Positions 70-25,678 are shown, counted from the stretch's first letter. The stretch: DNA of 57,208 bases from a virus (IMGVR_UViG_3300043313_001186:1-57208), one strand, 5' to 3'. Notes: generated from the letters alone by a model not told the origin. Made by a program: numbers and translations.

Positions 70-81
70 CGTTCGTGGCCA

Positions 82-296: not shown

Positions 297-442
297 CACT
301 GTCTCCGATACGTGCCGTTGACGCGTTTGGCCGCGGCGGCCGCTTCGACCTCGGTCTTGTAGGTCATGCGCTCACCCGAGGGCTTGGTGACCACGTAGGT
401 CGTGTTGGTGGTGGTCTTGCTCTTGCCGCAGTTACAGGGCAT
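296..442 (-). CDS. Conserved-looking 48-aa head-operon protein
   Basis: ATG at 442 lies just after the stop of the protease fusion (445). The protein begins MPCNCGKSKTTT, a short Cys-containing Thr-rich start, then a charged stretch with YVVTKPSGERM and an Ala-rich helix. The two N-terminal cysteines (CNC) could bind metal. Coupling to the next gene by TGATG and its place between protease and capsid suggest a head-assembly accessory role; this is inference from position only. Confidence 0.7.
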   Translation of the reverse strand: MPCNCGKSKTTTNTTYVVTKPSGERMTYKTEVEAAAAAKRVNGTYRRQ

Positions 443-444
443 GA

Positions 445-2976: not shown

Positions 2977-4748
2977 GTCCACTCCTGGAGGAACGCCTGG
3001 AAAGTCCGACTTTCATGCGGGCGATTCGTCTCGATCAGGTCCCGCACGTAGCGATCCAGCGTGGAGGCCGGGATGGAGATGGGCGGCAGTGCGCCCAGAC
3101 AGGACCAGGCATCCATCAGCACGTCGTCCACCTGCTCCGGTGTCAGCCGCTGAGCAAAGCGGTACAGGGTATGCGGCGGCACGTTCTCCGCGCCCATCGA
3201 GATGGTGTCCTTGTACTTGCTCTTGATCCGGTTGCCCGCCCGCTCCAGAGCACGGAAGACGATGACCTCGGCGACGGCGGCCTCTTCGCTCCGACGGTGA
3301 CGACGCGCGTCCCGGTCCGGTGGCCCGAGGTCCGGGTGGTCGAGCAGGGTCGGAGTCTCGGCCTCGGGGTGCTCGCGCTGACTGATCGCGATGGTCGGCA
3401 GGTCGACGCCCAGCATCTGGAGTGCGGCGGCGACAAGTTCCGGCGTCGTCATGCCGCCCGCAACCTTGCGCTTGTAGAACTCCTGGCGGTCCCGGTCGTC
3501 CATCGCGTCAGAGGACGCGAAGCCGTTCTCGGTGAGCACGGCGTCCGACGACAGCACCGCCCGGTCGTACAGTTCCAGCGCCTCCTTGGACCGATCCGGC
3601 CGGAGCCGCATCTGCGACGTGTCCACCTGGAAGTGGTACTCGTGCAGTTCCTCGACGCTCATCCCGGTGGATTCCAGGTACGGCCAGAGGTAGCCCTCGG
3701 TCAGCGAGGACACGATGATCTGGAGAAGCGGCTCGGTGTGCGCCTTGATCGAGGCATCCTCGATCTGCCACGCGCCCCAGTGATTGACCTCGCCGGTGCC
3801 GGTGAGCACTTCGGGCGGCATGTCCATGCCCAGAGCCAGGCGGCGGATCGCCTCTTTGCGCAGTTCGATGGATTGCTCATCCAGCGGTGTCGAGAAGGTC
3901 AGGTGCCGCACCTTGTCCAGATACTCGCCGTTGGCTTGCAGGATGATCGGCACCAGGGCGGACGGGTCCTCGCGATTGCGGATCGCCGTCATCATCGTCA
4001 GCATCAGTTCTTCGAGGAACGGGTCCAGTGCCACGTTCTGGTTGCTGGTGTCACCGGCGGCGTCGATGGTGGTGGCCGAGGTCGTGGCGAAGGAGATGTT
4101 GTCCGGCAGGAGCAGGATGCCCGCACCCGCCAAGCGTGAGTCGATCTGCGCGGCGACGTGCTTGGTCAGCCCGTCGATTTCAGCGAGCACCGGCAGGACC
4201 GCCCGCGAGGGCGAGTCCGGGGCGTCGTTGACCCGAGGGTGTGGACGCCAGAGCCGGATGATCAGCGGGTCGTTGATTTCCTTCTTGCCGACCCGCCACT
4301 CACCCTCGGCCTTCTTGGTCAACTCCGATGCCGCGACGACCAACCACTTGTCACCGACATCATCCCCGCCGTCCTCGCCGACGATGTAGCCCTCTCCGGC
4401 CACGGTGAACTGTACGCCGAGTTGGCGGAACATCTCCTTCTGGCCTTCGGGTCCACCGAACAGGGAGTTCAGCGCCTCGAAGGCGTCACCGGATTCCTGC
4501 CGATCATCGCCGCGATAGACACGCAGAACCGCACGAGAGAGCACGTTGCCGACCCAGGCACACGCGAACCGGAACTCGCCGATCACGTCGTACCACTTCC
4601 AGGCCCGCTCCTGCCAGCCGACATCGGCGCGCGGTTTGCGGTTGCCGTCCTTGTTGCCGGATATCGCGATCTGACGAGCGGCGGCCACGATCGCCTTGCC
4701 CTGCGGCATGGCGATCACTCGGGACTCATATTGCGTTGCGCGTGGCAT
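2973..4748 (-). CDS. Portal protein (591 aa)
   Basis: Forms the dodecameric head vertex for DNA entry and tail attachment. The N-terminal half has portal features: WYDVIGEFRFACAWVGN then LSRAVLRVYRG near residue 60-80, and later a DEQSIELRKEAIRRLALGMDMPPEVLTG segment typical of actinophage portals, followed by a HWGAWQIEDASIKAH stretch. Length is usual for the family. It lies directly between TerL and the MuF/protease gene, the standard order. Its last codons contain a dispersed palindrome (3000-3014, coding ESRTF) that also lies just upstream of the next start. Confidence 0.9.
   Translation of the reverse strand: MPRATQYESRVIAMPQGKAIVAAARQIAISGNKDGNRKPRADVGWQERAWKWYDVIGEFRFACAWVGNVLSRAVLRVYRGDDRQESGDAFEALNSLFGGPEGQKEMFRQLGVQFTVAGEGYIVGEDGGDDVGDKWLVVAASELTKKAEGEWRVGKKEINDPLIIRLWRPHPRVNDAPDSPSRAVLPVLAEIDGLTKHVAAQIDSRLAGAGILLLPDNISFATTSATTIDAAGDTSNQNVALDPFLEELMLTMMTAIRNREDPSALVPIILQANGEYLDKVRHLTFSTPLDEQSIELRKEAIRRLALGMDMPPEVLTGTGEVNHWGAWQIEDASIKAHTEPLLQIIVSSLTEGYLWPYLESTGMSVEELHEYHFQVDTSQMRLRPDRSKEALELYDRAVLSSDAVLTENGFASSDAMDDRDRQEFYKRKVAGGMTTPELVAAALQMLGVDLPTIAISQREHPEAETPTLLDHPDLGPPDRDARRHRRSEEAAVAEVIVFRALERAGNRIKSKYKDTISMGAENVPPHTLYRFAQRLTPEQVDDVLMDAWSCLGALPPISIPASTLDRYVRDLIETNRPHESRTFQAFLQEWT
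3000..3014. repeat. Dispersed palindrome
   Basis: GAAAGTCCGACTTTC; 3-nt spacer. Inside the portal 3' end, 23 bp before the MuF/protease start. Confidence 0.9.
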
Positions 4749-4758
4749 GGCGGTCCCC

Positions 4759-5097
4759 TCAGTTGTTCGGCTCGTCGCGGACGATCAGCATTGTCGCGAG
4801 GTAGGACAGAGCCAGGCCACCCCAGAAAATCCACCAGGACCACAGGAAGAACTCATGCACGTCGATGAGTAGGAACCACCCGATGCAGACCAGTGCCACC
4901 CAAAAGGACAGGCACCACCAGCACAGGAACAGTTTCGCCCACGGACCGTCGTGGGTCCACTGGCCCCACTTGTCCCGCCACCACATCGCGGGCGGAAAGT
5001 CGTCGTGCACGATCACGCGCGTCAGCCTCGCCACGCCGACGATCGCGACGATAATGGCGAGGCTTGCGATCCAGATGTTGTCCAGCGCCGCGCTCAC
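4759..5097 (-). CDS. DUF1360-like membrane protein (112 aa)
   Basis: Three hydrophobic segments are visible, and the stretch ARLTRVIVHDDFPP ... FLCWWCLSFWVALV is typical of the DUF1360 family found in actinophages and bacilli. GTG 5097 is preferred over ATG 5115: it gives a GTGA overlap with the TerL stop and GGAGG sits at the right distance. It lies between TerL and portal. Function is unknown; membrane location is clear. Confidence 0.8.
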   Translation of the reverse strand: MSAALDNIWIASLAIIVAIVGVARLTRVIVHDDFPPAMWWRDKWGQWTHDGPWAKLFLCWWCLSFWVALVCIGWFLLIDVHEFFLWSWWIFWGGLALSYLATMLIVRDEPNN

Positions 5098-6566
5098 GCG
5101 GACCTCCGTCCCCATCGGGGATCATCGTCATCCCTGCGCCGCATCGTACCGCCGCGAGCACTGCGAATGCGACCAATGCTGGACGTGCTGATCAGTTCGT
5201 CCAGCGCCCAGACCAGGGCGTCCACCCGGTTCGGGCTCGGGCCGGTGCCGGGAATCCAGGTCAGCATCTCGTTCTCCAGTTCGGCCAGGTCGTTCCAGTG
5301 GAACACCCGGCTCTGCTCGTAGAGGTTCACGATCGGCTCAGCACGCAGGGCCTTGGAGCGCATCGCGGTCTTCACGATGATCCGCGGGTTCAGCCCCATC
5401 GCCTCGGCCTCGGTCTCGATCACCTTCTTCACCATGTCGCCACCGAAGTTGCGCTCGGCCACGATCGCGTCGGCCTCCAGGTCCCGATACACCGACAGCG
5501 CCATGCGCGCCCAGCCCTGCGGCGAGTACTTGCCCGAGGCATCGCGCAGGACGTGACCGAACTTGCCCTCCCGGCCGACGGCGACGATGCCGGTTTCGTC
5601 GGAGCGCTTGTTCTGCGATCCCGCAGGGTCGATCGCGACCACGATCCGGTCCATCGGTCCCGGCTCGTTGGTCGCACCCATGTGTTGCAGGTATTCCTCG
5701 CGCCAGAGCGAGCCCTCCACGTCCAGGAGCAGTTCGCCGTACAACTCCTGGCGACCCTTCCGGGTGCCCTCGTACTGGCTGACGACCTCTTCGCGGAAGT
5801 TCGGCGCGAGGTTGTCCAGATTCGCGTAGGTGGAGACGCGGACGACGCGGGTGTTGTGGCGGCCCTGAATCTCACGCACCCACTTGGTCGGAAGCGGCGT
5901 GGAGGTCAGCACGACGTGCGGACGCGCGCCGATCCGCAGGCCGAACATCAGGTTGGACCAGACTTCCTCGGCATTCGGGTAGTGCGCCGGTTCATCGAGC
6001 CAGGCGAAGCCGTGGTTCGGGCCACGGAGGCGGTCCGGCTCTTCGGCCGAGAAGGTGGTGGCGATACAGCCGTTGTCGAAGGTGATCCGGCGCTTGGAGG
6101 GCTCCCACTTCACGCCCTGCCCCGCGACGGCGCAGACATAGATGAGTCCGGACTCACCCTCGATCATGGTGTCGCGGACATCGGCACCGGTGGGGGCGAT
6201 CAGCGCCATGCGCCCGACGCGCTCGCTCATCCTTCGCGTGTACTCGGCTCCGGTGCGGGTCTTGCCGGAACCGCGCCCACCGCTCAGGAACCACGAGAAC
6301 CAGTCCGATCCTGCGGGCGGCCACTGGTCACCACGGGCATGTGGGTACGGATAGCCGGTATGCGGCTTCCCATCGCAGTCCCTTCCCGGATTCGCGCAGT
6401 ACCACGCCCTCCGACGCCCTTTCACGAGGTCTTCGACCATGTTTGCGGCCTGTGCACGCCCCTCGGGGGACCACTGCTCGGCCATGGCCTTGATTTCCGC
6501 CGCTGTGAGGCGGCGGGGCTCGTCATCGTCGGCAAAATCGGCGATCGGAGGGGTTGTGGTGGTCAT
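5094..6566 (-). CDS. terL: Terminase large subunit (490 aa)
   Basis: The packaging motor ATPase and nuclease. Walker A GGRGSGKT is at about residues 96-103, a Walker B-like GFAWLDEPAHY follows, and the C-terminal RNase H-type nuclease starts at VVAIDPAGSQNKRSDETG. ATG 6566 is chosen: it overlaps the upstream stop as ATGA and has GAGG upstream, whereas the longer TTG start at 6587 has no support. Length is normal for siphophage terminases. Confidence 0.93.
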   Translation of the reverse strand: MTTTTPPIADFADDDEPRRLTAAEIKAMAEQWSPEGRAQAANMVEDLVKGRRRAWYCANPGRDCDGKPHTGYPYPHARGDQWPPAGSDWFSWFLSGGRGSGKTRTGAEYTRRMSERVGRMALIAPTGADVRDTMIEGESGLIYVCAVAGQGVKWEPSKRRITFDNGCIATTFSAEEPDRLRGPNHGFAWLDEPAHYPNAEEVWSNLMFGLRIGARPHVVLTSTPLPTKWVREIQGRHNTRVVRVSTYANLDNLAPNFREEVVSQYEGTRKGRQELYGELLLDVEGSLWREEYLQHMGATNEPGPMDRIVVAIDPAGSQNKRSDETGIVAVGREGKFGHVLRDASGKYSPQGWARMALSVYRDLEADAIVAERNFGGDMVKKVIETEAEAMGLNPRIIVKTAMRSKALRAEPIVNLYEQSRVFHWNDLAELENEMLTWIPGTGPSPNRVDALVWALDELISTSSIGRIRSARGGTMRRRDDDDPRWGRRSA

Positions 6567-6877
6567 CTCAGCCTCACAATCTGCCAATCGCCGTGTTCTC
6601 GGCCCCGAAGACGGTCTTTGGCGTAGCCACCGCGCACCAGGTCGCTGATCGGCGGCTCTTTCTGGGTGATTTCAGCCCAATCGACCTCTCCGTGCGAGTC
6701 GAAGACGGCAAATGCCAGGGCCGCGCGCCCGACATACTCCCGGGTGATCATCCTGCGGTTGTATGCGGCGTCCTCAATCGCCTCGAAGGCGCTTCGGAAG
6801 GTGGAAAAGCGCGATGACAGCCGCGGTTCGGGCATCTGCTCGTGGATTTCCTGGCGGATGCGCTCGTTCACCGCCAT
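6563..6877 (-). CDS. Unknown 104-aa protein between terminase subunits
   Basis: Mostly helical, with a RRMITREYVGRAALAFAVFD core and a basic C-terminus. It overlaps TerL by ATGA and the TerS-like gene by a few bases, so it is co-translated with the packaging genes. The start could be ATG 6877 (GGAG eight bases upstream) or GTG 6871 (GTGA overlap). No recognised family; a packaging accessory role is inferred from position only. Confidence 0.7.
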   Translation of the reverse strand: MAVNERIRQEIHEQMPEPRLSSRFSTFRSAFEAIEDAAYNRRMITREYVGRAALAFAVFDSHGEVDWAEITQKEPPISDLVRGGYAKDRLRGREHGDWQIVRLR

Positions 6878-7449
6878 TCGCCGGACTCCGGGTCCTCATG
6901 GAGTTCGATGTCCTCGAACGGATCACCCTCCACCGGAGGCGTCGTGCCGTTGAACATGGCCACGGCGGCGACCCACTGATCCAGGTCGTCCTTGCTGGGC
7001 AGGCCCAACTGCACGTTGATCGGCGCATCGAGACCGAGCAGACGGGATTTGCGGTCCACGACCAGCATCGCGGCGCGCAGATAGGCCAACTGCTGGTCAT
7101 CCTTGGGGTCCAGAGCCCGATCCACGACCGATCGGAGGAAGGCATCCAGTTGCAGGGACACTCTCTGTCTCTGCTTGGTCTTGTCCTCGGAATCATCCAG
7201 CGAATCGGCCAGCACCCGCTCCACGGCCATCCGTGCGGTGGCGACGGAAACGCCGAACTCGTCCGCGATGTCCGGGTAGTTGGCTCCGCGGGTCCACAGT
7301 GCCATGATGCCGCGCGCCATGACCTCGCTCATCGTCTCGGCGTCGCGGAGGTCCTTGGCGGTGCCCACCCGCTTCTGGATGCGGCGGACGGAAAGGTCAG
7401 CGGGGATGCGCTCAATGTCGTCGCCGGGGTCACCTGCCGGTTCGGCCAC
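6868..7449 (-). CDS. Terminase small subunit-like HTH protein (193 aa)
   Basis: An N-terminal helix-turn-helix is visible in YPDIADEFGVSVATARMAVERV (about residues 58-79), followed by a long helical segment and the LLGLDAPINVQLG motif often seen in small terminases, which recognise the packaging site and recruit TerL. GTG 7449 has AGGGGG seven bases upstream. It is the gene just before TerL (with one small gene between), as expected. The identity is inferred from fold-like features and context. Confidence 0.75.
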   Translation of the reverse strand: MAEPAGDPGDDIERIPADLSVRRIQKRVGTAKDLRDAETMSEVMARGIMALWTRGANYPDIADEFGVSVATARMAVERVLADSLDDSEDKTKQRQRVSLQLDAFLRSVVDRALDPKDDQQLAYLRAAMLVVDRKSRLLGLDAPINVQLGLPSKDDLDQWVAAVAMFNGTTPPVEGDPFEDIELHEDPESGEWR

Positions 7450-7560
7450 GAACGCACCCCCTAGGTGTCTTTGCGGGACGGTCTCAGGATAGACCCGGCT
7501 CCCCCGGAAAGTCGGACTTTTCGCACTACGGAACTATTCTGTACCACGTATACTGGTATC
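7450..7560 (+). promoter_or_regulatory. Divergent regulatory gap with rightward -10 and palindrome
   Basis: Contains a dispersed palindrome at 7507-7522 and a -10-like TATACT at 7549-7554, six bases before the ATG of the HNH gene. This implies a leaderless or nearly leaderless transcript. A -35 is not obvious at 17 bp spacing (ctacgg), so the promoter may depend on an activator. Confidence 0.5.
7507..7522. repeat. Dispersed palindrome
   Basis: GAAAGTCGGACTTTTC; 3-nt spacer. Between TerS and HNH genes. Confidence 0.9.
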
Positions 7561-7869
7561 ATGACCCGCACCGCAGGCCCTCCGATGCGCCGCTTCTTCG
7601 AGAAGTTCCGCGTGCAGGACTACTCGGTCTGCTGGGAGTGGCAGGGCAGTCGGTATCCGACCGGCTATGGCAAGTTCCGCCCCTCCGGCCCTAAGCAGGG
7701 GTACGCCCATCGCTTTGCCTACGAGTTCTGGCACGGCCCGATTCCGGAAGGCATGTTGGTGATGCACTCCTGCGACAACCCGCCCTGCGTGAACCCTCAG
7801 CACCTGAGCGTCGGCACCTACTCCGACAACGCGCAGGACCGCGAGAACAAGGGACGCGGCAGATGGTGA
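7561..7869 (+). CDS. HNH endonuclease (102 aa), rightward in the leftward arm
   Basis: A small HNH_3-type nuclease: CWEWQGS at about residue 26, then RFAYEFWHGPIPEGMLVMHSCDN and PPCVNPQHL, giving the Cys/His zinc frame and the catalytic H of the beta-beta-alpha metal fold. It is on the opposite strand to all structural genes around it. HNH proteins beside terminases often assist cos or headful cleavage, but free-standing homing types also look like this; the strand switch fits the second reading better. A -10 box lies six bases before the ATG. Confidence 0.88.
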   Translation: MTRTAGPPMRRFFEKFRVQDYSVCWEWQGSRYPTGYGKFRPSGPKQGYAHRFAYEFWHGPIPEGMLVMHSCDNPPCVNPQHLSVGTYSDNAQDRENKGRGRW

Positions 7870-8039
7870 GACCTCCGATCGGTCCGACGACGATGCTCTA
7901 CACCGTCAAGTTCCGGCTCTCGGACACCGACCTGGAGGACCTGCGTTCCATTTCCAGTGGGGGCTCGCTCAGCGAGGCCCTGCGCCGACTGATCCAGGAC
8001 GAGAAGAAGCGCCAGGCGAAGCGGAAGGCGGACGACTAG
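7866..8039 (+). CDS. Ribbon-helix-helix DNA-binding protein (57 aa)
   Basis: Overlaps the HNH stop by GTGA (an ATG three bases upstream is in frame). The core MLYTVKFRLSDTDLEDL ... SLSEALRRLI is the pattern of Arc/MetJ/CopG ribbon-helix-helix proteins: a strand with alternating polar residues, then two helices, then a basic tail (KKRQAKRKADD). Such proteins are dimeric and bind palindromes. It is a candidate ligand for the GAAAGT-N3-ACTTTC sites, one of which lies 38 bp before the HNH start, so the pair could be autoregulated. That link is inference. Confidence 0.75.
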   Translation: MRPPIGPTTMLYTVKFRLSDTDLEDLRSISSGGSLSEALRRLIQDEKKRQAKRKADD

Positions 8040-11424: not shown

Positions 11425-12003
11425 TCAGACCAGTTCCCCGGTCTCGGTGTTCACGAGTCCTTCACCGGTCCAGTCAACGTCGGGGTCCTGCTGGGCCTCG
11501 CGGTTCCAGGTCTTCCACGATCCCGAGTGCGCAATCTTCTTGTTGATCCGGTAGACGCCCTGCATGGTCCGAATGAGGATGTTCCGCTTCACCAGGCGCG
11601 AGACGTTCTTCGAGACGTTGTTGATATGGATGCCGAGGTCGCGGGCGATCACGCCGGAGGGGGCGACTATCTCGACCTCGTGGAAGGTGTCGCCCTCGCC
11701 ACCCTTGTCCGGCTTCTGGGCGCGGCCGATGATGTACGCCAGGATGCGGTACTCCGCCGCCGTCAACGTCAACTGGCTCAGGCTCAAGGTGTCCACCATC
11801 AGGTACACGGTGCCGTAGTTCCTTCCTCTGCCCCGCTGTCTGCGCGGCAACCTCTCGGGGGTGATCCGGATGATGTCTGCCATGCCGGTCTCTTCGTCAA
11901 CGACCTCCAGACGGACGCGTTCCCGCGATACCTTCTGAGCCAACGGCTCCTTCGGCGGCTTCTTTCGTCCGATACCCACGTTTGCCCACTTTCGTTGATC
12001 CAT
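11425..12003 (-). CDS. Winged-helix DNA-binding protein (192 aa), first gene of the leftward arm
   Basis: A MarR/RepL-like winged helix spans about residues 75-165: TAAEYRILAYIIGR, then PSGVIARDLGIHINNVSKNVSRLVKRNILI as the recognition helix region, then a wing and VYRINKKIAHSGSWKTWN, a tail shared with plasmid and phage RepL-type proteins. The basic N-terminus (GRKKPPKEPL) is probably flexible. As the first leftward gene next to the divergent control region it is a good candidate regulator or replication initiator; which one cannot be told from sequence. Confidence 0.75.
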   Translation of the reverse strand: MDQRKWANVGIGRKKPPKEPLAQKVSRERVRLEVVDEETGMADIIRITPERLPRRQRGRGRNYGTVYLMVDTLSLSQLTLTAAEYRILAYIIGRAQKPDKGGEGDTFHEVEIVAPSGVIARDLGIHINNVSKNVSRLVKRNILIRTMQGVYRINKKIAHSGSWKTWNREAQQDPDVDWTGEGLVNTETGELV

Positions 12004-12147
12004 TCAACCCTAGCGGATGTGCCCTTTCACGCAAAGGGATGGGTGGTTTCTGGTCCAAGAAACCGCTCCGACCAGGCTCTTTCCGGGCTGTCGGTCGCGA
12101 TTCTGCTCCCTATGTACTGTTCCCGCATCCTGTGCCAGCCTTCACCC
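12004..12147. other. Divergent control region, left part
   Basis: Non-coding start region of the leftward arm. The only promoter-like pair for the winged-helix gene is TTGCGT-16-TAGGGT on the minus strand (12007-12034), which sits too close to the ATG to be convincing. No palindrome copy is present. Confidence 0.4.
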
Positions 12148-12249
12148 ATGACCTTCCCCTGGTGGTTCTGGCTGTTCCCCGGTGGCATCTTCCTGATCGT
12201 GGTGGGCGTGCCGGTGTTCGGTGCGCTCGCCTCCCGGCGTCGGAAGTAG
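12148..12249 (+). CDS. Possible 33-aa single-TM protein
   Basis: Begins MTFPWWFWLFPGGIFLIVVG and ends SRRRK, a perfect small membrane protein with a positive C-terminus. There is no strong ribosome site. A palindrome (12252-12266) and a terminator (12268-12289) follow directly, so it would be a self-contained unit between the divergent arms. Confidence 0.45.
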   Translation: MTFPWWFWLFPGGIFLIVVGVPVFGALASRRRK

Positions 12250-12251
12250 CA

Positions 12252-12266
12252 AAAAGTCGGACTTTC
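12252..12266. repeat. Dispersed palindrome
   Basis: AAAAGTCGGACTTTC; 3-nt spacer. Abuts the terminator at 12268. Confidence 0.85.
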
Positions 12267-12267
12267 T

Positions 12268-12289
12268 GGACGGCCCTCAGGGGCCGTCC
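12268..12289 (+). terminator. Intrinsic terminator-like hairpin
   Basis: GGACGGCCC and GGGCCGTCC form a perfect 9-bp stem around TCAG, followed by TTCCTGCTTGT. It abuts the palindrome at 12252-12266 and closes the small plus-strand ORF. Confidence 0.6.
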
Positions 12290-12375
12290 TTCCTGCTTGT
12301 GTTCCGTGGGACCTAATGGCCCGGGGCATCCTAGCACAGGGTGGTGCCTAGCGATGAGAACGGGGCTGCGCCCGA

Positions 12376-12405
12376 TTGGGCGCGGGGGGCCCCCCCTGCT
12401 ATACT
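12376..12405 (+). promoter_or_regulatory. Candidate main rightward promoter
   Basis: TTGGGC (12376-12381), an 18-bp spacer, and TATACT (12400-12405) followed by GGTAGGAG, matching the -10 context of other promoters here. The spacer is unusual: a G6C7 palindrome. The first rightward gene starts 380 bp downstream, with three palindromes in between. Confidence 0.5.
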
Positions 12406-12435
12406 GGTAGGAGCGGCAAGGGGGCCGGGACGGAT

Positions 12436-12455
12436 CTGAAAGTCACGACTTTCAG
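12436..12455. repeat. Dispersed palindrome, extended 20-bp form
   Basis: CTGAAAGTCACGACTTTCAG; 4-nt spacer; first of nine consecutive 4-nt copies. Confidence 0.92.
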
Positions 12456-12472
12456 AATCTTGACCCGGTGCG

Positions 12473-12611
12473 CCCAAAAATACCGCCCCCGACTTGGGGA
12501 GAACTCTATCTACAGGAAGGATTTGCCAGCACCACACACCCACATAGGGTCTACTCGGAGTACCCAAAAACTCCGCACAGTCACTAGGGAGAACTCTCTC
12601 TAGGAATCAGA
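12473..12611. repeat. Imperfect tandem duplication, period 90 bp
   Basis: The stretch from 12473 (CCCAAAAATACCGC) to about 12515 recurs from 12563 (CCCAAAAACTCCGC). The core GGGAGAACTCT is exact in both, at 12497 and 12587. Each copy also has an A5 run 20-30 bp before the core. Confidence 0.65.
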
Positions 12612-12625
12612 AAGTGTCAACTTTC
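12610..12625. repeat. Dispersed palindrome
   Basis: GAAAGTGTCAACTTTC; 4-nt spacer. Early leader. Confidence 0.9.
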
Positions 12626-12686
12626 TGGCACGGCTCGCCGAATATGGCGCGCGCTAGATCACCGACATTCAACGATTCAACGCTCT

Positions 12687-12706
12687 CTGAAAGTCAAGAC
12701 TTTCAG
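12687..12706. repeat. Dispersed palindrome, extended 20-bp form
   Basis: CTGAAAGTCAAGACTTTCAG; 4-nt spacer. 79 bp before ATG 12786. Confidence 0.92.
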
Positions 12707-12712
12707 TGTCCC

Positions 12713-12743
12713 GGATACGGGTTGACTAGGTAGTCCATCCCTC
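12713..12743. repeat. Inverted repeat, left arm (31 bp)
   Basis: Matches the reverse complement of 13459-13489 at 28 of 31 positions. It starts GGATACGGGTTGACTAGG and ends CCATCCCTC. The TTGACT at 12722-12727 could serve as a -35 box for the gene at 12786. Confidence 0.85.
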
Positions 12744-12785
12744 ATTTACCGCCACGCACAATGTGGCAGAAATGAGAGGCCAATC

Positions 12786-13424
12786 ATGGCTAAGACCACC
12801 ATCACCGCCACCCGTTCGCTCGCGGAAATTGTTGACGAGTTCGTTCACATCACGGACTCCAGCAACCTGCGTTTCCACCAGTCCCGGCTGGCATTCGAGT
12901 ACATCGGCAACGCCGAGGGAAAGGACGCCGCCGACCTCAAGGAGACGTTCCGCAAGGAGGCCAACGAGGCGCTTCGTCGTGAAAACGAGGCACCCCTGTC
13001 GGTTCCCGGTGTCACCAACCTGGTGAACACCTGGAAGTACCTCCAGCGAGCGAACATCGTGACGGACCCCGACGCGAACCCGCATGTCATGGCTGTCGCC
13101 AAGGCCGCGTTCAACCTCGCCTCGCAGACGTTTGCGGGCAAGGACGTCAACTACGTCAACCCTGCGATCGAAGCGATCATCAACGGGCGTGACCCGCTCA
13201 AGACGTTCATCGACGCCAAGAACTCCCTCAAGGCCGACAAGGAAAAGGCCCAGAAGGACGCCGAGGCTCGGCGAGCCGAAAAGCAGGCCGACCCGAACGT
13301 CGTGTTCGACTCGATCGTCGCAACGCTCAACATGATCACCGCCGAGAACTTCGCGCGGCTCACTGACGAGCGCAAGTCCATCCTCCGTGACCTCGTGGCG
13401 AACGTCGCCAAGGTCGCCAAGTAA
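12786..13424 (+). CDS. First rightward-arm gene: unknown 212-aa helical protein
   Basis: ATG 12786 follows GAGAGG at seven bases. The protein is predicted largely helical, with a highly charged stretch at about residues 145-172 (DAKNSLKADKEKAQKDAEARR) that could form a coiled coil, and no cysteines or membrane segments. It is uniquely flanked by the two arms of a 31-bp inverted repeat and preceded by three palindromes, so it is probably strongly expressed and regulated. Its position as first gene suggests an early regulatory or host-takeover role; no family was recognised. Confidence 0.85.
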   Translation: MAKTTITATRSLAEIVDEFVHITDSSNLRFHQSRLAFEYIGNAEGKDAADLKETFRKEANEALRRENEAPLSVPGVTNLVNTWKYLQRANIVTDPDANPHVMAVAKAAFNLASQTFAGKDVNYVNPAIEAIINGRDPLKTFIDAKNSLKADKEKAQKDAEARRAEKQADPNVVFDSIVATLNMITAENFARLTDERKSILRDLVANVAKVAK

Positions 13425-13458
13425 CAACCCTCCGGCGCACTTCCGCGCCAAAAAACCC

Positions 13459-13489
13459 GAGGGATGGACTATCTAGCGAACCCGTATCC
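13459..13489. repeat. Inverted repeat, right arm (31 bp)
   Basis: Reverse-complement partner of 12713-12743 with three mismatches. Lies 35 bp after the stop of the 212-aa gene. Confidence 0.85.
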
Positions 13490-13530
13490 AAAGAATGAGT
13501 CAGTCGCTTAGCGACGGCATGCCTCACCCC

Positions 13531-13546
13531 GAAAGTCACAACTTTC
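13531..13546. repeat. Dispersed palindrome
   Basis: GAAAGTCACAACTTTC; 4-nt spacer. 15 bp before ATG 13562. Confidence 0.9.
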
Positions 13547-13561
13547 AGAGAGAGAGAAACC

Positions 13562-13711
13562 ATGCCTCAGCCCTTCGACCCGTCGCCCTCATCCATCACC
13601 GATGAGTGCCCGTGTGGCCGTACCCATTGGGTCACATTTGACGACTCCACATTCGCCATTGAATACATCTGTCCCGACTGCGGACAGCACTCACGCCTCA
13701 CCTTCAAGTAA
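13562..13711 (+). CDS. 49-aa zinc-ribbon protein
   Basis: ATG 13562 follows an AGAGAGAG purine tract 15 bp after a palindrome. Two Cys pairs, CPCG at about residue 16 and CPDCG at about 40, frame a small beta-ribbon. A zinc-binding early protein of unknown role. Confidence 0.75.
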   Translation: MPQPFDPSPSSITDECPCGRTHWVTFDDSTFAIEYICPDCGQHSRLTFK

Positions 13712-13744
13712 CCCTTGGCGTGCCGTCACTTGGCGACTGACTCT

Positions 13745-13760
13745 GAAAGTCCGAACTTTC
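13745..13760. repeat. Dispersed palindrome
   Basis: GAAAGTCCGAACTTTC; 4-nt spacer. 21 bp before ATG 13782. Confidence 0.9.
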
Positions 13761-13781
13761 CAGAAGAGAAAAGGAAGAGCC

Positions 13782-13886
13782 ATGTTCTTGGACTTCATCC
13801 AAGCGCTCAGCAACTTCTGCTTCGACCTCGGCTTTGTGCTCCCATGCTGGGACCTCATCGCCGAAGCGGGCGGAGTCTGTCGCTGA
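13782..13886 (+). CDS. 34-aa peptide
   Basis: ATG 13782 with GGAAGAG just upstream and a palindrome 21 bp before. The product MFLDFIQALSNFCFDLGFVL... is hydrophobic with three cysteines and may be membrane-associated. An intrinsic terminator follows, so it is a one-gene unit. Confidence 0.6.
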   Translation: MFLDFIQALSNFCFDLGFVLPCWDLIAEAGGVCR

Positions 13887-13892
13887 ACATCG

Positions 13893-13918
13893 GGCCGGAC
13901 CTTCGGGTCCGGCCTTTT
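13893..13918 (+). terminator. Intrinsic terminator
   Basis: GGCCGGAC (13893-13900), loop CTTCGG, GTCCGGCC (13907-13914), then TTTT. Located directly after the 34-aa gene. Confidence 0.85.
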
Positions 13919-13941
13919 GGCGACCCCAAAAATCGTCGCCA

Positions 13942-13957
13942 GAAAGTCTCGACTTTC
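13942..13957. repeat. Dispersed palindrome
   Basis: GAAAGTCTCGACTTTC; 4-nt spacer. First of two identical copies 105 bp apart before the 128-aa gene; nothing else is seen in between. Confidence 0.9.
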
Positions 13958-14046
13958 CACAACTTCACATCCCGCGCGTCGCCGAGTCGTCATCGAACGA
14001 ACGGCGACGCTACTCGTCGTCATTGAGCGGCGTTCCCGAACGTCCA

Positions 14047-14062
14047 GAAAGTCTCGACTTTC
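14047..14062. repeat. Dispersed palindrome
   Basis: GAAAGTCTCGACTTTC; 4-nt spacer. 28 bp before ATG 14091. Confidence 0.9.
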
Positions 14063-14090
14063 TGGGTCACCAAAAGAGAGAGAGAAAGCA

Positions 14091-14477
14091 ATGTCACTTG
14101 AACCACTGAACACGGAAGCGTACTGCGACGTGTGCGAGTCATGGACCGCGGTCACCGTCAGCGAGAACATCGCGACGGTCGAACTGGCCTGCGACTGGTG
14201 CGGCACCGTCATCCGGTACACCTTCCCGCGCTACATGGAGGCCGCGTCACGGATCGAGGCTGAAAGTCCCGACTTTCCGGCGCCGATGCCGGACCTGGAC
14301 CTGGTGGAACTGTCACCGCAACAGCCCTACGAGGACGAGGGCGGCTTCGATGACAACGGGTTCCGCATGGCGCCGATCATGGAGGGCGAACTATGCGCCG
14401 ACTGCGACAACCCCGCCGTCATCCGGCAGGTCGCTGGCATGGCGTCCTACGGCTTCTGCGCGGAGCACAAGCGATGA
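14091..14477 (+). CDS. Zinc-ribbon protein, 128 aa
   Basis: Two separate Cys-containing modules: CDVC ... CDWC at residues 12-37 and CADCDNP ... CAEH near the C-terminus, with an acidic middle. The CADC-x-CAEH tail is a common phage zinc-finger ending. ATG follows a GAGAGAGAGA tract. A palindrome at 14262-14277 is read here as ESPDF. Unknown function. Confidence 0.8.
   Translation: MSLEPLNTEAYCDVCESWTAVTVSENIATVELACDWCGTVIRYTFPRYMEAASRIEAESPDFPAPMPDLDLVELSPQQPYEDEGGFDDNGFRMAPIMEGELCADCDNPAVIRQVAGMASYGFCAEHKR
14262..14277. repeat. Dispersed palindrome, intragenic
   Basis: GAAAGTCCCGACTTTC; 4-nt spacer. In the 128-aa zinc-ribbon gene. Confidence 0.9.
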
Positions 14478-14557
14478 GCCTGCTCGTGCCCGCGATCATC
14501 ACGCTCGCCTTCGTGGCGATCTGGGCGCTCTGCGAGTACATCGGGTCACGACTGTGA
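14474..14557 (+). CDS. 27-aa single-TM peptide
   Basis: Coupled by ATGA to the zinc-ribbon gene and by GTGA to the next gene. MSLLVPAIITLAFVAIWALC is one membrane segment. Too short for family assignment, but the double overlap supports translation. Confidence 0.6.
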   Translation: MSLLVPAIITLAFVAIWALCEYIGSRL

Positions 14558-14694
14558 CCCTCATCGTGCACCAGTTCACGAACGCGCTCGATCACGAGTT
14601 GATCGAGACGCACAGGTTCCCGGACGAGGACGCCTTCCTGGCGTGGCTCGACTCGCAGGAGAGCACTGTCTTCATCGAGGTGGTCCCGCTATGA
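14554..14694 (+). CDS. Unknown 46-aa protein, paralogue of the next gene
   Basis: GTG 14554 gives a GTGA overlap. The pattern LIETHRFPDEDAFLAWLDSQE aligns with LIETLVFRDYAELGEWLDKQE of the following gene, so the two are probably a tandem duplication. Short beta-alpha protein, function unknown. Confidence 0.65.
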   Translation: MTLIVHQFTNALDHELIETHRFPDEDAFLAWLDSQESTVFIEVVPL

Positions 14695-14975
14695 CGCTCG
14701 CACCGATCGTCTGCTTCCACCACGACAAGCGGACCCACAACCTCATCGAGACGCTGGTCTTCCGGGACTACGCCGAACTCGGCGAGTGGCTGGACAAACA
14801 GGAGACCTACGTCGAACTCGTCTTCCAGCCGCGCGAGGAAGTGATCGACGTGCGCCACAGCATGGACCACTGCCCTGGCTGTGGCCTCAAGGTCCGCGAC
14901 TTCGAGGAAGGCGGCTTCGAGAACTCGACGGGTCAACGCGGCCATTTCGAGTGCGTGCCGCACCTGTACCCGTAG
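14691..14975 (+). CDS. Unknown 94-aa protein with Cys pair
   Basis: ATGA-coupled to the previous gene, whose sequence it extends. The N-terminal half matches the 46-aa paralogue; the C-terminal half adds HCPGCGLKVRDFEEG, a half zinc site. A hairpin-palindrome module follows its stop. Confidence 0.7.
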   Translation: MTLAPIVCFHHDKRTHNLIETLVFRDYAELGEWLDKQETYVELVFQPREEVIDVRHSMDHCPGCGLKVRDFEEGGFENSTGQRGHFECVPHLYP

Positions 14976-14978
14976 ACG

Positions 14979-15063
14979 GACACCGTGAGGGCCCCGACTT
15001 TCGCTGAAAGTCGGGACTTTCTCGGTTGCTGACTGCATCCGATCACAAGAGAGAGAGAACAAC
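14979..15063 (+). promoter_or_regulatory. Hairpin-palindrome-SD module, copy 1
   Basis: CCCGACTTTC-GCT-GAAAGTCGGG (14993-15015) is a 10-bp hairpin that overlaps the palindrome at 15006-15021, followed by a TCGGTTGC segment and an AAGAGAGAGAG purine tract before the ATG at 15064. The whole block recurs at 15808-15895. RNA could fold through either the hairpin or the palindrome, which are mutually exclusive. Confidence 0.6.
15006..15021. repeat. Dispersed palindrome
   Basis: GAAAGTCGGGACTTTC; 4-nt spacer; last of the 4-nt block. Confidence 0.9.
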
Positions 15064-15472
15064 ATGAGCAAGAACATCACCATCGGCCGCATCGCCACGC
15101 TCGGCATCGGCATCGCCCTCGGTGTCGGGAGCGTCGCCCTTCACGGCCGCGTGCCTACCGGACGAGCCGACGGCACCTGCGAGTGTCGAGACACCGGTCA
15201 CCGCACCGGAGGCGAGCACCGAGGCACCGAGTCTGCCCGAGGGCACGCTGGAGTGCGGCGAGGACGGCATCGCCACCGACAGCGACCCGGTGCACGGCAA
15301 CTGGGCGTACTGCGAGCCCGCTCTGGCTGGACTGGAGGGTCAGACCCTCTACCCCTGCCCCGTCGAGGACGCGCCGAACTGCTACTGGGACGCCGCGACG
15401 ATGGGCAACGGCACCGGTCGGTCGTTCGTGAACATCGACGGCACGTACTACTACGCCGAGGACACCAAGTGA
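15064..15472 (+). CDS. Lipoprotein with apparent frameshift near 15135
   Basis: From ATG 15064 the first frame encodes a signal peptide (MSKNITIGRIATLGIGIALG). The next frame carries a lipobox-like FTAAC, a Pro/Thr/Ala-rich linker and a Cys-containing domain (LECGEDGIATDSD ... CEPALAGLEGQTLYPCPVED ... NIDGTYYY) ending at 15472. Joining them needs a +1 shift at the CCC around 15134-15136. Reading on in the first frame instead gives Arg/Gly-rich nonsense-like sequence. So this is a surface lipoprotein, with either a sequencing indel, a real mutation or recoding. A superinfection role is possible but not shown. Confidence 0.65.
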
Positions 15473-15615
15473 GCGAGGCACTGCTCGGCATCCTGATCAC
15501 CCTGCTCCTGATCGCGGGCGGCCTCACGGTGAACTACTTCCTGATGAAGTGGGCCGTGCGCAACGGCACCATCGAGGCCAACTACTACGAGCGAGCACGC
15601 GAGGCACGGCAGTGA
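15469..15615 (+). CDS. 48-aa single-TM protein
   Basis: GTG 15469 overlaps the lipoprotein stop by GTGA. MSEALLGILITLLLIAGGL is a membrane segment followed by a charged cytoplasmic tail (NYYERAREARQ). Coupled to the following gene by GTGA. Confidence 0.7.
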   Translation: MSEALLGILITLLLIAGGLTVNYFLMKWAVRNGTIEANYYERAREARQ

Positions 15616-15803
15616 CAGCCCTGCTGATCACGGCGATGCTCACCGGCATCGCCTGCCACGTCTTCTACGCCGGTCGCAGGCGTAGAAAGCGTCGCCCTGT
15701 CCGCATGGCACGCTCCGGCTGGTACCCAGACCCTTGGCAGAAGGACTGCCTGCGGTACTGGAGCGGCCACCACTGGACGAAGTACACACACGTCATCGCT
15801 TGA
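15612..15803 (+). CDS. DUF2510 membrane protein (63 aa)
   Basis: An N-terminal TM segment (MTALLITAMLTGIACHVFY), a strongly basic RRRRKRR stretch, then GWYPDPW ... LRYWSGHHWT, which matches the DUF2510 domain found almost only in actinobacteria. This is the clearest single pointer to the host group. Function of the domain is unknown. Confidence 0.8.
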   Translation: MTALLITAMLTGIACHVFYAGRRRRKRRPVRMARSGWYPDPWQKDCLRYWSGHHWTKYTHVIA

Positions 15804-15807
15804 CGCG

Positions 15808-15895
15808 GAGACCGTGGGGGTCCGGCTTTCTCATCGAAAGTCGGACTTTCTCGGTTGCCGACCGGCACCGAATACAAGAGAGAAAGAGAGACACC
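15808..15895 (+). promoter_or_regulatory. Hairpin-palindrome-SD module, copy 2
   Basis: Repeats the 14979-15063 block: GTCCGGCTTTC pairs with GAAAGTCGGAC around TCATC, the palindrome 15836-15850 follows, then TCGGTTGC, then ACAAGAGAGAAAGAGAG before ATG 15896. The spacer is 3 nt here against 4 nt in copy 1. Confidence 0.6.
15836..15850. repeat. Dispersed palindrome
   Basis: GAAAGTCGGACTTTC; 3-nt spacer; first after the switch. Confidence 0.9.
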
Positions 15896-16402
15896 ATGCA
15901 CTGGTCACACCCGACCGATATCGAAGCCGTCAACGTGGGCGGGACGTTCTTCGTGAACGCCTGCTTCGCCGACGGCCGAGGAACCGAGACGCACAAGGCC
16001 GTCACCTGCAAGACCTGCAAGAGCCTGCTGGATCAGCCGCGCACATCCACACAGATGAGCGCACGCCTGGTCCAGACGGTGATGGAGTGGCAGGAGACGG
16101 GCATGGCCGAGAAGGACTACGACCAGATGTTCTACGTGACGTTGACCTGCAACGCATGCCCGAACGACCTGGACGTGTCCGACTGGTCATCGCGCGTAGA
16201 CCTGCACAACCTGGTCAACGACGGGCGGCACTTCCTGGAACACTGTGCGTACGAGCACATGGGGGGTGCGGAGCCGATGATCCGGCGCGAGTACTCGTTC
16301 GCCTCGGCGTACCAACTGAACCTGGCGCTGGGCAAGCCCGCCATGACCATGCACGAGGAAGCGTGGCGTGAGCGGCAAGGCGTGGACAAGCAGGTGTCGT
16401 GA
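15896..16402 (+). CDS. Unknown 168-aa Cys-rich protein
   Basis: Two Cys pairs (CKTCKSLLD and CNACPNDLD) plus HCAYEH suggest zinc binding. Otherwise a soluble mixed alpha/beta protein. ATG follows a long purine tract. No family recognised. Confidence 0.75.
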   Translation: MHWSHPTDIEAVNVGGTFFVNACFADGRGTETHKAVTCKTCKSLLDQPRTSTQMSARLVQTVMEWQETGMAEKDYDQMFYVTLTCNACPNDLDVSDWSSRVDLHNLVNDGRHFLEHCAYEHMGGAEPMIRREYSFASAYQLNLALGKPAMTMHEEAWRERQGVDKQVS

Positions 16403-16542
16403 CGACAGCCGCGCTCATCTTCCTCGCGCTCGTGACGATCGTCTCGCTCGCGATCGTGCCGATACTTCTGGTCCTGCTTGCCTGCGGGGTCGGATTTATC
16501 GGCGCGGTCCTGAGCGAACTGTTCTTCAAGTACGAGCGATGA
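16399..16542 (+). CDS. 47-aa membrane protein
   Basis: GTGA overlap with the upstream gene. One long or two short hydrophobic helices (LIFLALVTIVSLAIVPILLV and LACGVGFIGAVLSELFF) with a KYER tail. Confidence 0.7.
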   Translation: MTTAALIFLALVTIVSLAIVPILLVLLACGVGFIGAVLSELFFKYER

Positions 16543-16555
16543 ACAGGCTCACGAT

Positions 16556-16584
16556 TTGCCTAAGTCCTACTATTGTGGTAGACT
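16556..16584 (+). promoter_or_regulatory. SigA-like promoter
   Basis: TTGCCT (16556-16561), 17-bp spacer, TAGACT (16579-16584), then AGTAGTTAG, matching the discriminator of the promoters at 21.3 and 28.3 kb. It drives the structured leader and the gene at 16762. Confidence 0.75.
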
Positions 16585-16619
16585 AGTAGTTAGAAGGTTG
16601 AAGTAGGACCTTCGATCGT

Positions 16620-16635
16620 GAAAGTCCGACTTTTC
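16620..16635. repeat. Dispersed palindrome
   Basis: GAAAGTCCGACTTTTC; 36 bp downstream of the -10 at 16579-16584. Confidence 0.9.
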
Positions 16636-16720
16636 TTCATGGGGGTGAGAGTCGGACCTTCGCCATGCGCTGGGGCTCACCCGCATCTGTGTGGGGACGC
16701 ACGGGTGAGCCCCGGCCACC

Positions 16721-16736
16721 GAAAGTCGGACTTTTC
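16721..16736. repeat. Dispersed palindrome
   Basis: GAAAGTCGGACTTTTC; 25 bp before ATG 16762. Confidence 0.9.
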
Positions 16737-16761
16737 GTCCGACCCCCAGAGAAGGAGAGAA

Positions 16762-16938
16762 ATGGCAATAGCAAGCGATGCCTGGACCACGGACGATGAC
16801 GAGAGCAACATCTTCGTCACCCGGACGAGCGACGGAAGAGTTCTGCTCACCGTAGCAACGGTCACCGGGTCACAGGGCGTCACGCTGAACCTGCACGAGC
16901 AGAAGCGGCTCGCCGACTTCCTCACGGACGCCTCATGA
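16762..16938 (+). CDS. Unknown 58-aa protein
   Basis: ATG with GAAGGAGAG upstream. Acidic N-terminus, then VFVT/GRVLLTVATVTG strands and a LHEQKRLADFL helix: a small beta-beta-beta-alpha protein. ATGA-coupled to the next gene. Confidence 0.75.
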   Translation: MAIASDAWTTDDDESNIFVTRTSDGRVLLTVATVTGSQGVTLNLHEQKRLADFLTDAS

Positions 16939-17600: not shown

Positions 17601-17801
17601 ATGGCGTCAAGCAACATATTCGACGCCTGGGTGCTTCCCATGGCCGCCCTGCTCGCCGTCGTCGTCCTTGGATCGGTGCTGTGCACCTGGATCGGCTACC
17701 TGTACGGCGCGCAGGTCCTCGGCTGGTTCCTGAGCGTCGGGTGGGGCATTGCAATCGGCACGGACGTGAGTCGGTCGATATACCGGAGCCGACGTGGCTA
17801 G
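17601..17801 (+). CDS. 66-aa two-TM membrane protein
   Basis: The ATG is directly adjacent to a palindrome (17586-17600) with no ribosome site between. Two hydrophobic segments (LPMAALLAVVVLGSVLCTWI and VLGWFLSVGWGIAIG) and a basic tail RSIYRSRRG. Confidence 0.7.
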   Translation: MASSNIFDAWVLPMAALLAVVVLGSVLCTWIGYLYGAQVLGWFLSVGWGIAIGTDVSRSIYRSRRG

Positions 17802-18102
17802 GCATAACGTCTTCCGTGAGGACCGCGTGCATGTGTTGGCCGAGGAATGTGCGACGTGCATTTTTCGGCCGCACACGCGGCCTGTGAACGGCGAGCGAGT
17901 GGCCGGGATGGTCCGGGAGACGATCAACGATCCCGGTGCCACCGTGGTCTGCCACTCCACGCTGTATCGCGGCAAGCCGAAGCGGCACGCGATCTGCCGC
18001 GGCTGGTATGACCGACTCGCCGACCGCGACCCGATACTCGGGCTCGCTCAAGCAATGGGCATGATCGTCTTCGATCCTGTCCCGGACAAGGAGAAGCAGT
18101 GA
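17794..18102 (+). CDS. Unknown 102-aa protein
   Basis: GTG 17794 overlaps the previous gene by eight bases. CATCIFRP near residue 20 and two later Cys with His (VVCHSTLY, HAICRGWYDR) are compatible with a metal site. The pattern ECATCIFRPHTRP ... HAICRG recurs in actinophage small proteins of unknown role. Confidence 0.75.
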   Translation: MARHNVFREDRVHVLAEECATCIFRPHTRPVNGERVAGMVRETINDPGATVVCHSTLYRGKPKRHAICRGWYDRLADRDPILGLAQAMGMIVFDPVPDKEKQ

Positions 18103-24250: not shown

Positions 24251-25165
24251 ATGGCCGGAACAACCAATGACAAGAAGCCCACACCGGGACAGAAGCCCAC
24301 ACCGGGACCGAAGCCCACGCCGAAGCCGACGCTGGTGGAGTATCCGCTGACAACTCAGATGATGGAAGTCACCCCTGAGTTGGCCGACGAGTGGCTCGCC
24401 ACCATGGCCCCGAACCGCCGCGTCTCCAGCGGGAACCTGGGGAATCTGATCCAGGCGATGGAGGAAGGTCGCTGGCACGACGACGGCTCGCCGATCCGGT
24501 TCAACCGGTCCGGTCAGTTGATCGACGGCCAGCACCGGCTGACCGCGATTCGCGCCGCCAGGACGCCGCAGACGCTCCTGGTGGTGTGGGGCGTGGAGGA
24601 CAGCGCAATGACGACGCTGGACACCGGCAAGAGCCGGACCCGCGCGGACATTCTGATGATCCACGACCCGCACCTGGTCAACGTGACGAACGTCGCCGCA
24701 GGGGTGGGCATGATGTTGCGCTGGTCGAAGGGCTATCGCAACCACTACATCCGGACGGCCGTGATCAGCAACGACGAGGTTGTGGCGTTCTACGACGCCA
24801 ATCGCGACGAGGTTCTGGATGCCACGAGACACGGCGCTCGGGTGGCGAAGGCCACCGGTGCTGGCTCGGGCATGGCGTTCGCGCTGTGCTACTGGCTGTT
24901 CACGAACATGGACGCGGAGGACGGCGAGTTCTTCTGGGACCGGCTGGTTGACGGGTCCGGTCTGGAGATAGGCAGTCCGATCTACGCACTGCGGGAACTG
25001 CTCGCTCGCGAGGCTCGCTCGTCCACTCGGGAGCGGCTCCGTGCGGACGTGCTGGTGGCCCTGATCATCAAGGCGTGGAACGCCTACCGGAAGGGCGAAG
25101 AGATACGTCTGCTGGCCTTCAAGACCGGTGGAGCGCACCCGGAGAAGTTCCCGGAGCCGGTCTGA
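24251..25165 (+). CDS. ParB-like protein with DGQHRL motif (304 aa)
   Basis: After a Pro/Lys/Thr-rich repeated tail (KPTPGQKPTPGPKPTPKPT) comes a ParB/sulfiredoxin-type fold: TPELADEWLATM, NLIQAMEEGRW, IRFNRSGQLIDGQHRLTAI (residues ~80-97). The DGQHRL motif is the hallmark of ParB-like nuclease/CTPase domains. The C-terminal half is helical. In phages such proteins may nick DNA or act in replication; here it precedes the helicase. Confidence 0.75.
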   Translation: MAGTTNDKKPTPGQKPTPGPKPTPKPTLVEYPLTTQMMEVTPELADEWLATMAPNRRVSSGNLGNLIQAMEEGRWHDDGSPIRFNRSGQLIDGQHRLTAIRAARTPQTLLVVWGVEDSAMTTLDTGKSRTRADILMIHDPHLVNVTNVAAGVGMMLRWSKGYRNHYIRTAVISNDEVVAFYDANRDEVLDATRHGARVAKATGAGSGMAFALCYWLFTNMDAEDGEFFWDRLVDGSGLEIGSPIYALRELLAREARSSTRERLRADVLVALIIKAWNAYRKGEEIRLLAFKTGGAHPEKFPEPV

Positions 25166-25177
25166 TCCAACACAGAG

Positions 25178-25218
25178 CGACCCCCCTGGCAACATTTGTG
25201 CAGTCACCAGGGGGGTCG
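25178..25218 (+). terminator. 12-bp hairpin after the ParB-like gene
   Basis: CGACCCCCCTGG pairs perfectly with CCAGGGGGGTCG around a 17-nt loop. There is no T-run after it. It may attenuate or protect the upstream mRNA. Confidence 0.6.
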
Positions 25219-25295
25219 TAGGATCGGGGTATCTCACACCACCGCGCCATTCCAGTCTATACATGGGCGGGCGCACCATCGCAAGGGAGCCCGCC

Positions 25296-25349
25296 ATGTT
25301 GTGCTGTTCGTTTTGTGCACCCGCTACATCTGGGTGCGTCCTCTCGTGA
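25296..25349 (+). CDS. Cys-rich 17-aa upstream peptide
   Basis: ATG 25296 with AAGGGAG eight bases upstream encodes MLCCSFCAPATSGCVLS and its TGA overlaps GTG 25346 as GTGA. It could be a leader peptide controlling translation of the next gene. An in-frame ATG at 25263 would lengthen it. Confidence 0.4.
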   Translation: MLCCSFCAPATSGCVLS

Positions 25350-25678
25350 CCGGCGAGTACAACCGCGGGTATGCCGCGGGTCGCGCCTCTCGTGACGCCG
25401 AGTTCGACGCGCTCCAGCGCGTAGCCGACTACTGGTACCTCCGCGCGTGCAACCCCGGCATGCCCTCGCCCGAAGCCAAGATGGTGAACAACCTCATCGC
25501 TGGCCAGGAGGCGAACGAAGAGCGTGCTCGGAAGTACGCCGAACTGGACGCGATCGAACAGGCCAAGTTCGCTGAGGCCGAGGCCCTCATTGCCGAGGGC
25601 TACGAAGACATTGACGTCGCCACGAAAGTCGGACTTTTCCTCGGCATCGTGCAGAACCTGAGAGCAGGGACGCTGTGA
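25346..25678 (+). CDS. Unknown 110-aa helical protein
   Basis: GTG 25346 is chosen because of the GTGA overlap; the earlier in-frame sequence has no ribosome site. YNRGYAAGRASRDAEFDALQ resembles small phage proteins with a GYxxGRA motif. A palindrome at 25624-25639 encodes KVGLF. It is GTGA-coupled to the helicase. Confidence 0.7.
   Translation: MTGEYNRGYAAGRASRDAEFDALQRVADYWYLRACNPGMPSPEAKMVNNLIAGQEANEERARKYAELDAIEQAKFAEAEALIAEGYEDIDVATKVGLFLGIVQNLRAGTL
25624..25639. repeat. Dispersed palindrome, intragenic
   Basis: GAAAGTCGGACTTTTC; near the 3' end of the gene before the helicase. Confidence 0.9.

Follow-up and report, generated by a model that had tools for sequence, protein, structure and literature searches.

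Dispersed palindromes have been described repeatedly in lytic actinophages. Microbacterium phages of cluster EG carry an 18-bp inverted repeat, GATCAACC-NN-GGTTGATC, and neither an integrase nor a repressor has been reported in this cluster (PMC7302621, PMC9224216). Cluster O mycobacteriophages have a 17-bp repeat, TGTTCGG-N3-CCGAACA, with 34 copies in Corndog (PMC4351075). The SAS and ESAS of cluster K are short conserved motifs located just upstream of the starts of non-structural genes, the ESAS being inverted repeats with spacers mostly of 4-13 bp, for which no position classes were reported (PMC3203893).

We analysed a virus record of IMG/VR, 57.2 kb in length (the whole of this stretch is referred to as the window), that is, the genome of a virus of an actinobacterial host in which a single palindromic DNA signal recurs about 40 times. 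The packaging and structural genes are directed leftward, and the early genes rightward from approximately 12.1 kb; protein matches include the portal, the terminase, and Rad52-like and exonuclease-like proteins. Since no integrase was found among the window proteins scanned, the phage is likely lytic. The terminase shares ~45-52% identity with its counterparts in Microbacterium phages of cluster EG (Gillianvirus, Squashvirus) and in Curtobacterium and Arthrobacter phages, and the phage belongs to a superfamily of probably lytic actinophages that includes these groups. The early region features considered below are:

11425-12003, minus strand: g19, divergent winged-HTH protein (RepL/MarR-like)
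12252-12266, plus strand: N3 palindrome AAAAGTCGGACTTTC with one outer-base departure, upstream of the putative early promoter
12376-12405, plus strand: putative early promoter TTGGGC-N18-TATACT (manual reading and conservation)
12438-12453, plus strand: N4 palindrome GAAAGTCACGACTTTC, 33 bp after the -10 region of the putative early promoter
12610-12625, plus strand: N4 palindrome, early leader (exact scan)
12689-12704, plus strand: N4 palindrome, early leader (exact scan)
12786-13424, plus strand: g21, the first large gene of the early region, encoding an orphan protein of 212 aa with an all-helical model
13531-13546, plus strand: N4 palindrome followed by a small Zn-ribbon-like ORF (exact scan)
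13745-13760, plus strand: N4 palindrome, 21 bp upstream of the g22 start (exact scan)
13942-13957, plus strand: N4 palindrome, intergenic (exact scan)
14047-14062, plus strand: N4 palindrome, 28 bp upstream of the g23 start (exact scan)
14262-14277, plus strand: N4 palindrome within g23 (exact scan)
15006-15021, plus strand: last N4 palindrome, centre CGGG, duplicated leader
15836-15850, plus strand: N3 palindrome, centre CGG, in the paralogous counterpart of the leader at 15006
15836-37415, plus strand: N3 palindromes scattered through the early region at approximately one per kb

An exact scan for GAAAGT-N4-ACTTTC yielded nine copies, all within 12438-15021; hence, the nine consecutive four-base spacers claimed by an earlier, sequence-only reading were confirmed, although the first copy starts at 12438 rather than at 12436. 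GAAAGT-N3-ACTTTC with exact outer bases occurs at 15 sites, all of them outside the N4 block. If the outer base is relaxed ([GA]AAAGT-spacer-ACTTT[CT]), the window contains 38 sites (N3, n = 29; N4, n = 9), and spacers of 0-2 and 5-30 bases gave no site in it, so that all copies elsewhere, including the flanking ones at 12252 and 15836, indeed have a three-base spacer, with no third class. The number of N3-type matches with at most three mismatches is 42, compared to 8.6 expected from shuffles. With the spacer labels shuffled, the probability that all nine N4 sites are contiguous among the 38 is 1.8e-7, and the rank test for promoter-proximal location of N4 sites in the window yields p = 4.8e-6.

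The sites are predominantly intergenic (27 of 38 in a genome that is 89% coding, P = 7e-18), and 20 of 38 have a start codon at most 60 bp downstream (P = 3e-11); both statistics rest on gene calls from a simple purpose-written finder, and for this reason individual gene starts may be wrong (the start of g10 was taken at 7863, whereas the finder called 7893). The early region holds 31 of the 38 sites, and the palindrome is usually situated upstream of a purine-rich AGAGAG stretch. The spacing of the sites is more even than random: neighbouring sites are about 1 kb apart in the early region, and those of the late region about 3.9 kb if the two ends of the record join; even spacing of genes may be a partial cause. 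In the extended form, the dyads are GAAAGTC-S-GACTTTC for N3 and GAAAGTC-NN-GACTTTC for N4, hence their centres are of one and two base pairs, respectively. The half-sites are invariant except for the outer base, where A or G is tolerated on either side. Perfect 7-bp halves are slightly more common in N4 (17 of 25) than in N3 sites (28 of 64; p = 0.059). Within the block, the N4 sites have differing centres and unrelated flanks.

Dispersed sites are also known for several DNA-binding proteins. Cluster A stoperators (L5) and the conserved inverted repeats of phiC31 are numerous repressor-binding sites of temperate phages with known repressors, and we know of no spacer classes among them; the stoperators are asymmetric 13-bp sites oriented with transcription, whereas the window sites are symmetric. 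KorB, a ParB-family protein of plasmid RK2, has a dozen operators; these are dispersed palindromes with an odd base at the centre, and they act on promoters at differing distances. The EG repeat is probably the direct counterpart of the window palindromes: in these related phages (terminase ~50% identical), palindromes are likewise dispersed, associated with gene starts in early leaders, and present in many intergenic copies. However, the half-site is GAAAGTC in the window and GATCAACC in EG, and the window mixes N3 and N4, while N2 is found at every site of the EG phages Pepe25, AluminumJesus and Marcie. The cluster O repeat is similar in being dispersed, symmetric, often intergenic, with a 3-bp centre and a suggested role of a dimeric binding site, but it has a different half-site and was described with one spacer class and no positional sub-class (PMC4351075). 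SAS are 13-bp asymmetric motifs at the ribosome-binding site, unlike the symmetric window sites upstream of the AGAGAG stretch (PMC3203893). As dispersed start-associated palindromes have been published for EG and cluster O, the repeat family is of a known kind. What is new is that the class of the dyad centre depends on the position in the operon; the papers cited above on such palindromes describe no division into two spacer classes by operon position.

Scanning IMG/VR, we observed both N3 and N4 GAAAGT sites in L007, L008 and the 61-kb contig G001 (L021, L016, L006 and others), and only N3 sites in L046, L047 and L048. In all four genomes with N4 sites, including the window, these occupy one syntenic place just past g19 and across g21 (the L007 contig ends inside g21), and the g21 proteins are 48-79% identical; thus, the spacer class does follow the gene block in related phages, which supports that part of the sequence-only reading. 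The distal boundary of the block varies: in G001 it stops before the g29 equivalent, and in L008 it extends past g29 and includes one interleaved N3. Upstream of g29, the window and G001 have an N3 site and L008 an N4 site. Proximal rank tests, which outside the window are exploratory since the survey followed discovery of the pattern, gave p = 7.9e-5 for G001 and p = 0.36 for the short L008 contig. The off-register sites of this clade are +1 only, never -1. A genome scan with the g21 family revealed no prophage or host copies.

All seven genomes have a recognisably homologous g19-g21 leader, the homology being clearest in the window, L007, L046, L047 and L048. The -10 region of the putative early promoter is conserved in relatives (TAGACT); a consensus scanner found no sigma-70-type promoter in 11900-16800, TTGGGC-N18-TATACT being missed as well. 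The site upstream of the putative promoter (12252) is N3 in every genome possessing it. The site approximately 30 bp past the -10 region is N4 in the window (12438), L007 (5317), L008 (5561) and L021 (11347), and N3 in L046 (9644), L047 and L048, being degenerate in two of these three. Similarly, the site at 12610 corresponds to N4 in L007 (5453) and to N3 in L046 (9815) and L048 (3988), and the one at 12689, to N4 in L007 (5530) and N3 in L048 (4052). Such differences in the same sense at several leader sites would not be expected from random one-base changes. The N3-only genomes form one clade in the g21 tree, and therefore a single historical switch could suffice. At the other end of the block, a leader is present in duplicate, and its two copies carry the sites at 15006 (N4) and 15836 (N3), which are distinguished by one central G; hence, the class boundary here is a one-base difference between paralogous copies.

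De novo palindrome counts in named relatives demonstrated that the half-site is lineage-specific, and wherever spacers mix (GAAAGT, GTCTAG, GCCGGT), both classes use the lineage's own half-site. EG phages have ATCAACC-N2; Tank, Rizwana, AWGoat, SilentRX and BruhMoment, GGTCGG-N4 (equivalently, GGGTCG-N6); Kithara, GTTCAG-N4. The most proximal site of Kithara has a deviant centre. No palindrome stood out in Nicole72, and neither Nicole72 nor Pepe25 has GAAAGT sites. Off-register spacers were absent from the surveyed EG, Tank-type and Kithara phages. Sunfish has twelve GTCTAG N3 sites and one N4 (+1), which is the most promoter-proximal of the 13 (exploratory p = 0.077). Beagle, Pointis, Odyssey395, Pureglobe5 and MellowYellow have GCCGGT N2 sites plus N1 or N3. 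In MellowYellow, all seven off-register sites are in the proximal 2 kb, with -1 and +1 side by side, and all 18 distal sites are N2 (p = 4.6e-5, likewise exploratory); in Beagle and Pointis, such sites are few and less clustered, and the exploratory test for proximal enrichment in Beagle is not significant (p = 0.21). Among five Arthrobacter phages, the site adjoining the first gene is N3 in five of five and another proximal site is N1 in five of five, while other orthologous sites flip between N1 and N2, one site at a time.

Several explanations of the block may be considered. Hairpin formation in RNA, with loops of 3 or 4 nt close to the start codons, would agree with the position of sites just upstream of the starts, but some sites lie inside genes, no Rfam family was matched, and among asymmetric outer pairs the pair-breaking A..C (n = 17) outnumber the pair-keeping G..T (n = 8), so that G-U pairing is not favoured and hairpins are hardly credible. 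It is also quite improbable that recombination, an origin of the block put forward in the sequence-only reading, imported the segment from an all-N4 phage: such phages are mosaic, and single-gene trees for g21 and packaging disagree, but a search of IMG/VR for an all-N4 genome or contig found none, the leader flanks are homologous between the N4 and N3 genomes, the upstream N3 site is common to both groups, and the distal boundary differs among the window, L008 and G001, falling in the window between duplicated leader copies; thus, import alone is unlikely to account for the block. If the spacer were neutral, a single tolerant protein would bind both classes, and the block would be a functionless product of common descent, drift and duplication of the leader. 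The single-G difference between the duplicated copies, the one-site flips in Arthrobacter phages and the N3 inside the L008 block are in line with this, but the block sites differ in their centres and flanks, the block has been retained across divergent genomes, with about 30 sites elsewhere in the window and in G001 remaining N3, and proximal enrichment recurs in MellowYellow with a different half-site, which makes neutrality doubtful.

The remaining alternative is that two regulators, either paralogs or two dimer forms, share a common half-site, one acting at N3 sites genome-wide and the other at N4 sites of immediate-early genes. It is consistent with the sharp block, solely N4 inside in the window, with its retention in four genomes despite the divergence of g21, and with the concerted difference at three homologous leader sites; the restriction of the window clade to +1 would also be predicted by a second protein with fixed spacing. 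However, the half-sites are wholly different between lineages yet common to both spacers, so that at every such change two proteins would have had to shift their specificity in parallel. The neighbouring -1 and +1 sites in MellowYellow also argue against two regulators, as do the lack of paralogous DNA-binding proteins in the window and the closeness of the g19 HTH between L008 (N4) and L048 (N3-only). We consider two regulators unlikely, and the same degree of doubt applies to a spacer code, in which proteins or dimer forms would discriminate the operators of the immediate-early segment from the rest by one central base pair. The proposal that the two classes bind different proteins or dimer forms is not supported as the best reading, as both share one half-site and orthologous sites of close Arthrobacter relatives change spacer one by one, the outcome that the sequence-only reading had itself named as a refutation.

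The candidate binders include a small gene near a further site:

7507-7521, plus strand: N3 palindrome with one outer mismatch, between g8 and the HNH gene/g10
7863-8039, plus strand: g10, CopG/Arc-type ribbon-helix-helix candidate regulator

An N3 site upstream of g10 is present in the window and five relatives (L007, L008, L046, L047, L048), which would fit autoregulation of g10. The match of the g10 family to RHH_1 (18.7 bits, in L046) is below the cut-off of 20.5, and the g10 model, of modest quality, has two helices after an unassigned strand segment and no clear PDB match; the strand residues are identical in L045, a genome without GAAAGT sites. As a spacer-specific factor, g19 was rejected: besides the similarity of its HTH in L008 and L048, it was undetected in the N3 genomes L046 and L047 and is 73% identical in L045. 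The product of g21 was rejected as the binder, its all-helical model having no fold match and homology with the first early genes of the named relatives being undetectable, and so was the ParB-like g49, whose homologues are widespread, with no link to the sites found.

The explanation we favour, at approximately even probability, is one phage-encoded dimeric DNA-binding protein, as yet putative, that tolerates a change of one base pair and for which promoter-proximal operators are kept off-register, tuning occupancy. The sites, the block and its conservation in four genomes, the N3 state of its counterparts in three relatives and the comparable tendency at unrelated half-sites are observations; we infer that a protein binds, that it is a single one, which way the affinity changes and what follows for regulation. 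The symmetry, the invariant half-sites, the A/G tolerance at the outer base and the absence of a G-U preference suggest that a symmetric protein recognises the GAAAGT palindromes as operators in double-stranded DNA; a single DNA-binding domain is the simplest assumption, as both spacer classes share the lineage's half-site. This putative dimer would occupy many start-associated sites across the probably lytic genome, and it probably accommodates a dyad centre longer or shorter by one base pair, given the mixture of -1 and +1 sites and the flips at orthologous ones. Since off-register sites gather promoter-proximally both in the window clade and, with an unrelated half-site, in MellowYellow, they most likely serve to tune occupancy: N4 near the early promoter and first early genes would alter occupancy there, most likely weakening it, and the immediate-early segment would then respond to another level of the protein, or at another time, than the rest. 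The slightly higher perfection of half-sites in N4 would fit compensation for weaker binding.

The named sites and the cultured relatives (MellowYellow and Pointis, infecting Arthrobacter; Sunfish, Curtobacterium) make this a bench-testable question. The dispersed palindromes of lytic actinophages have been described repeatedly, each time with no binder or function assigned; the position-dependent centre, which recurs with unrelated half-sites, suggests that they are graded operators of early genes rather than passive repeats.

The operator candidates are GAAAGT palindromes with a spacer of three bases (N3 sites) or four before ACTTTC. In relatives an N3 site lies immediately 5' of g10, a gene for a candidate regulator of the CopG/Arc ribbon-helix-helix (RHH) type, whereas in the window one further gene intervenes:

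7561-7869, HNH gene g9, with the conserved N3 site on one side and the candidate RHH gene g10 on the other

Two more HNH-like genes of the window, g46 and g64, are both related to g9. Elsewhere, positions 17790-18000 share 72% identity over about 210 bp with Microbacterium phage Nicole72, and the GAAAGT repeats were not found in the part of the Nicole72 genome examined.

The leader preceding the first large early gene (12460-12770) contains the strongly conserved stretches GGGTCTACTCGGAGTACCC, GGGAGAACTCTCTCTAGG and GGATACGGGTTGACTAGGTAGTCC, common to relatives; it may be structured or contain a second promoter.

The relative L045, where the divergent winged-HTH gene g19 is 73% identical to that of the window, has no GAAAGT sites in positions 1-7023. 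The same region carries ten copies of GGGCCC, several of the form AGGGCCCT and adjoining gene starts, and these possibly form an operator set of its own.

In BruhMoment, whose half-site, as in Tank, is GGTCGG-N4, each of three proximal palindromes (13005, 13672, 13775) encloses a second one, GGGTCCGACCC. In Tank (24773-26761), most GGTCGG-N4 sites close to the first early gene have TTAC at their centre, and most of those farther from it have TTGC or GTGC, which is perhaps a proximal/distal split of the window's kind, expressed in sequence form.
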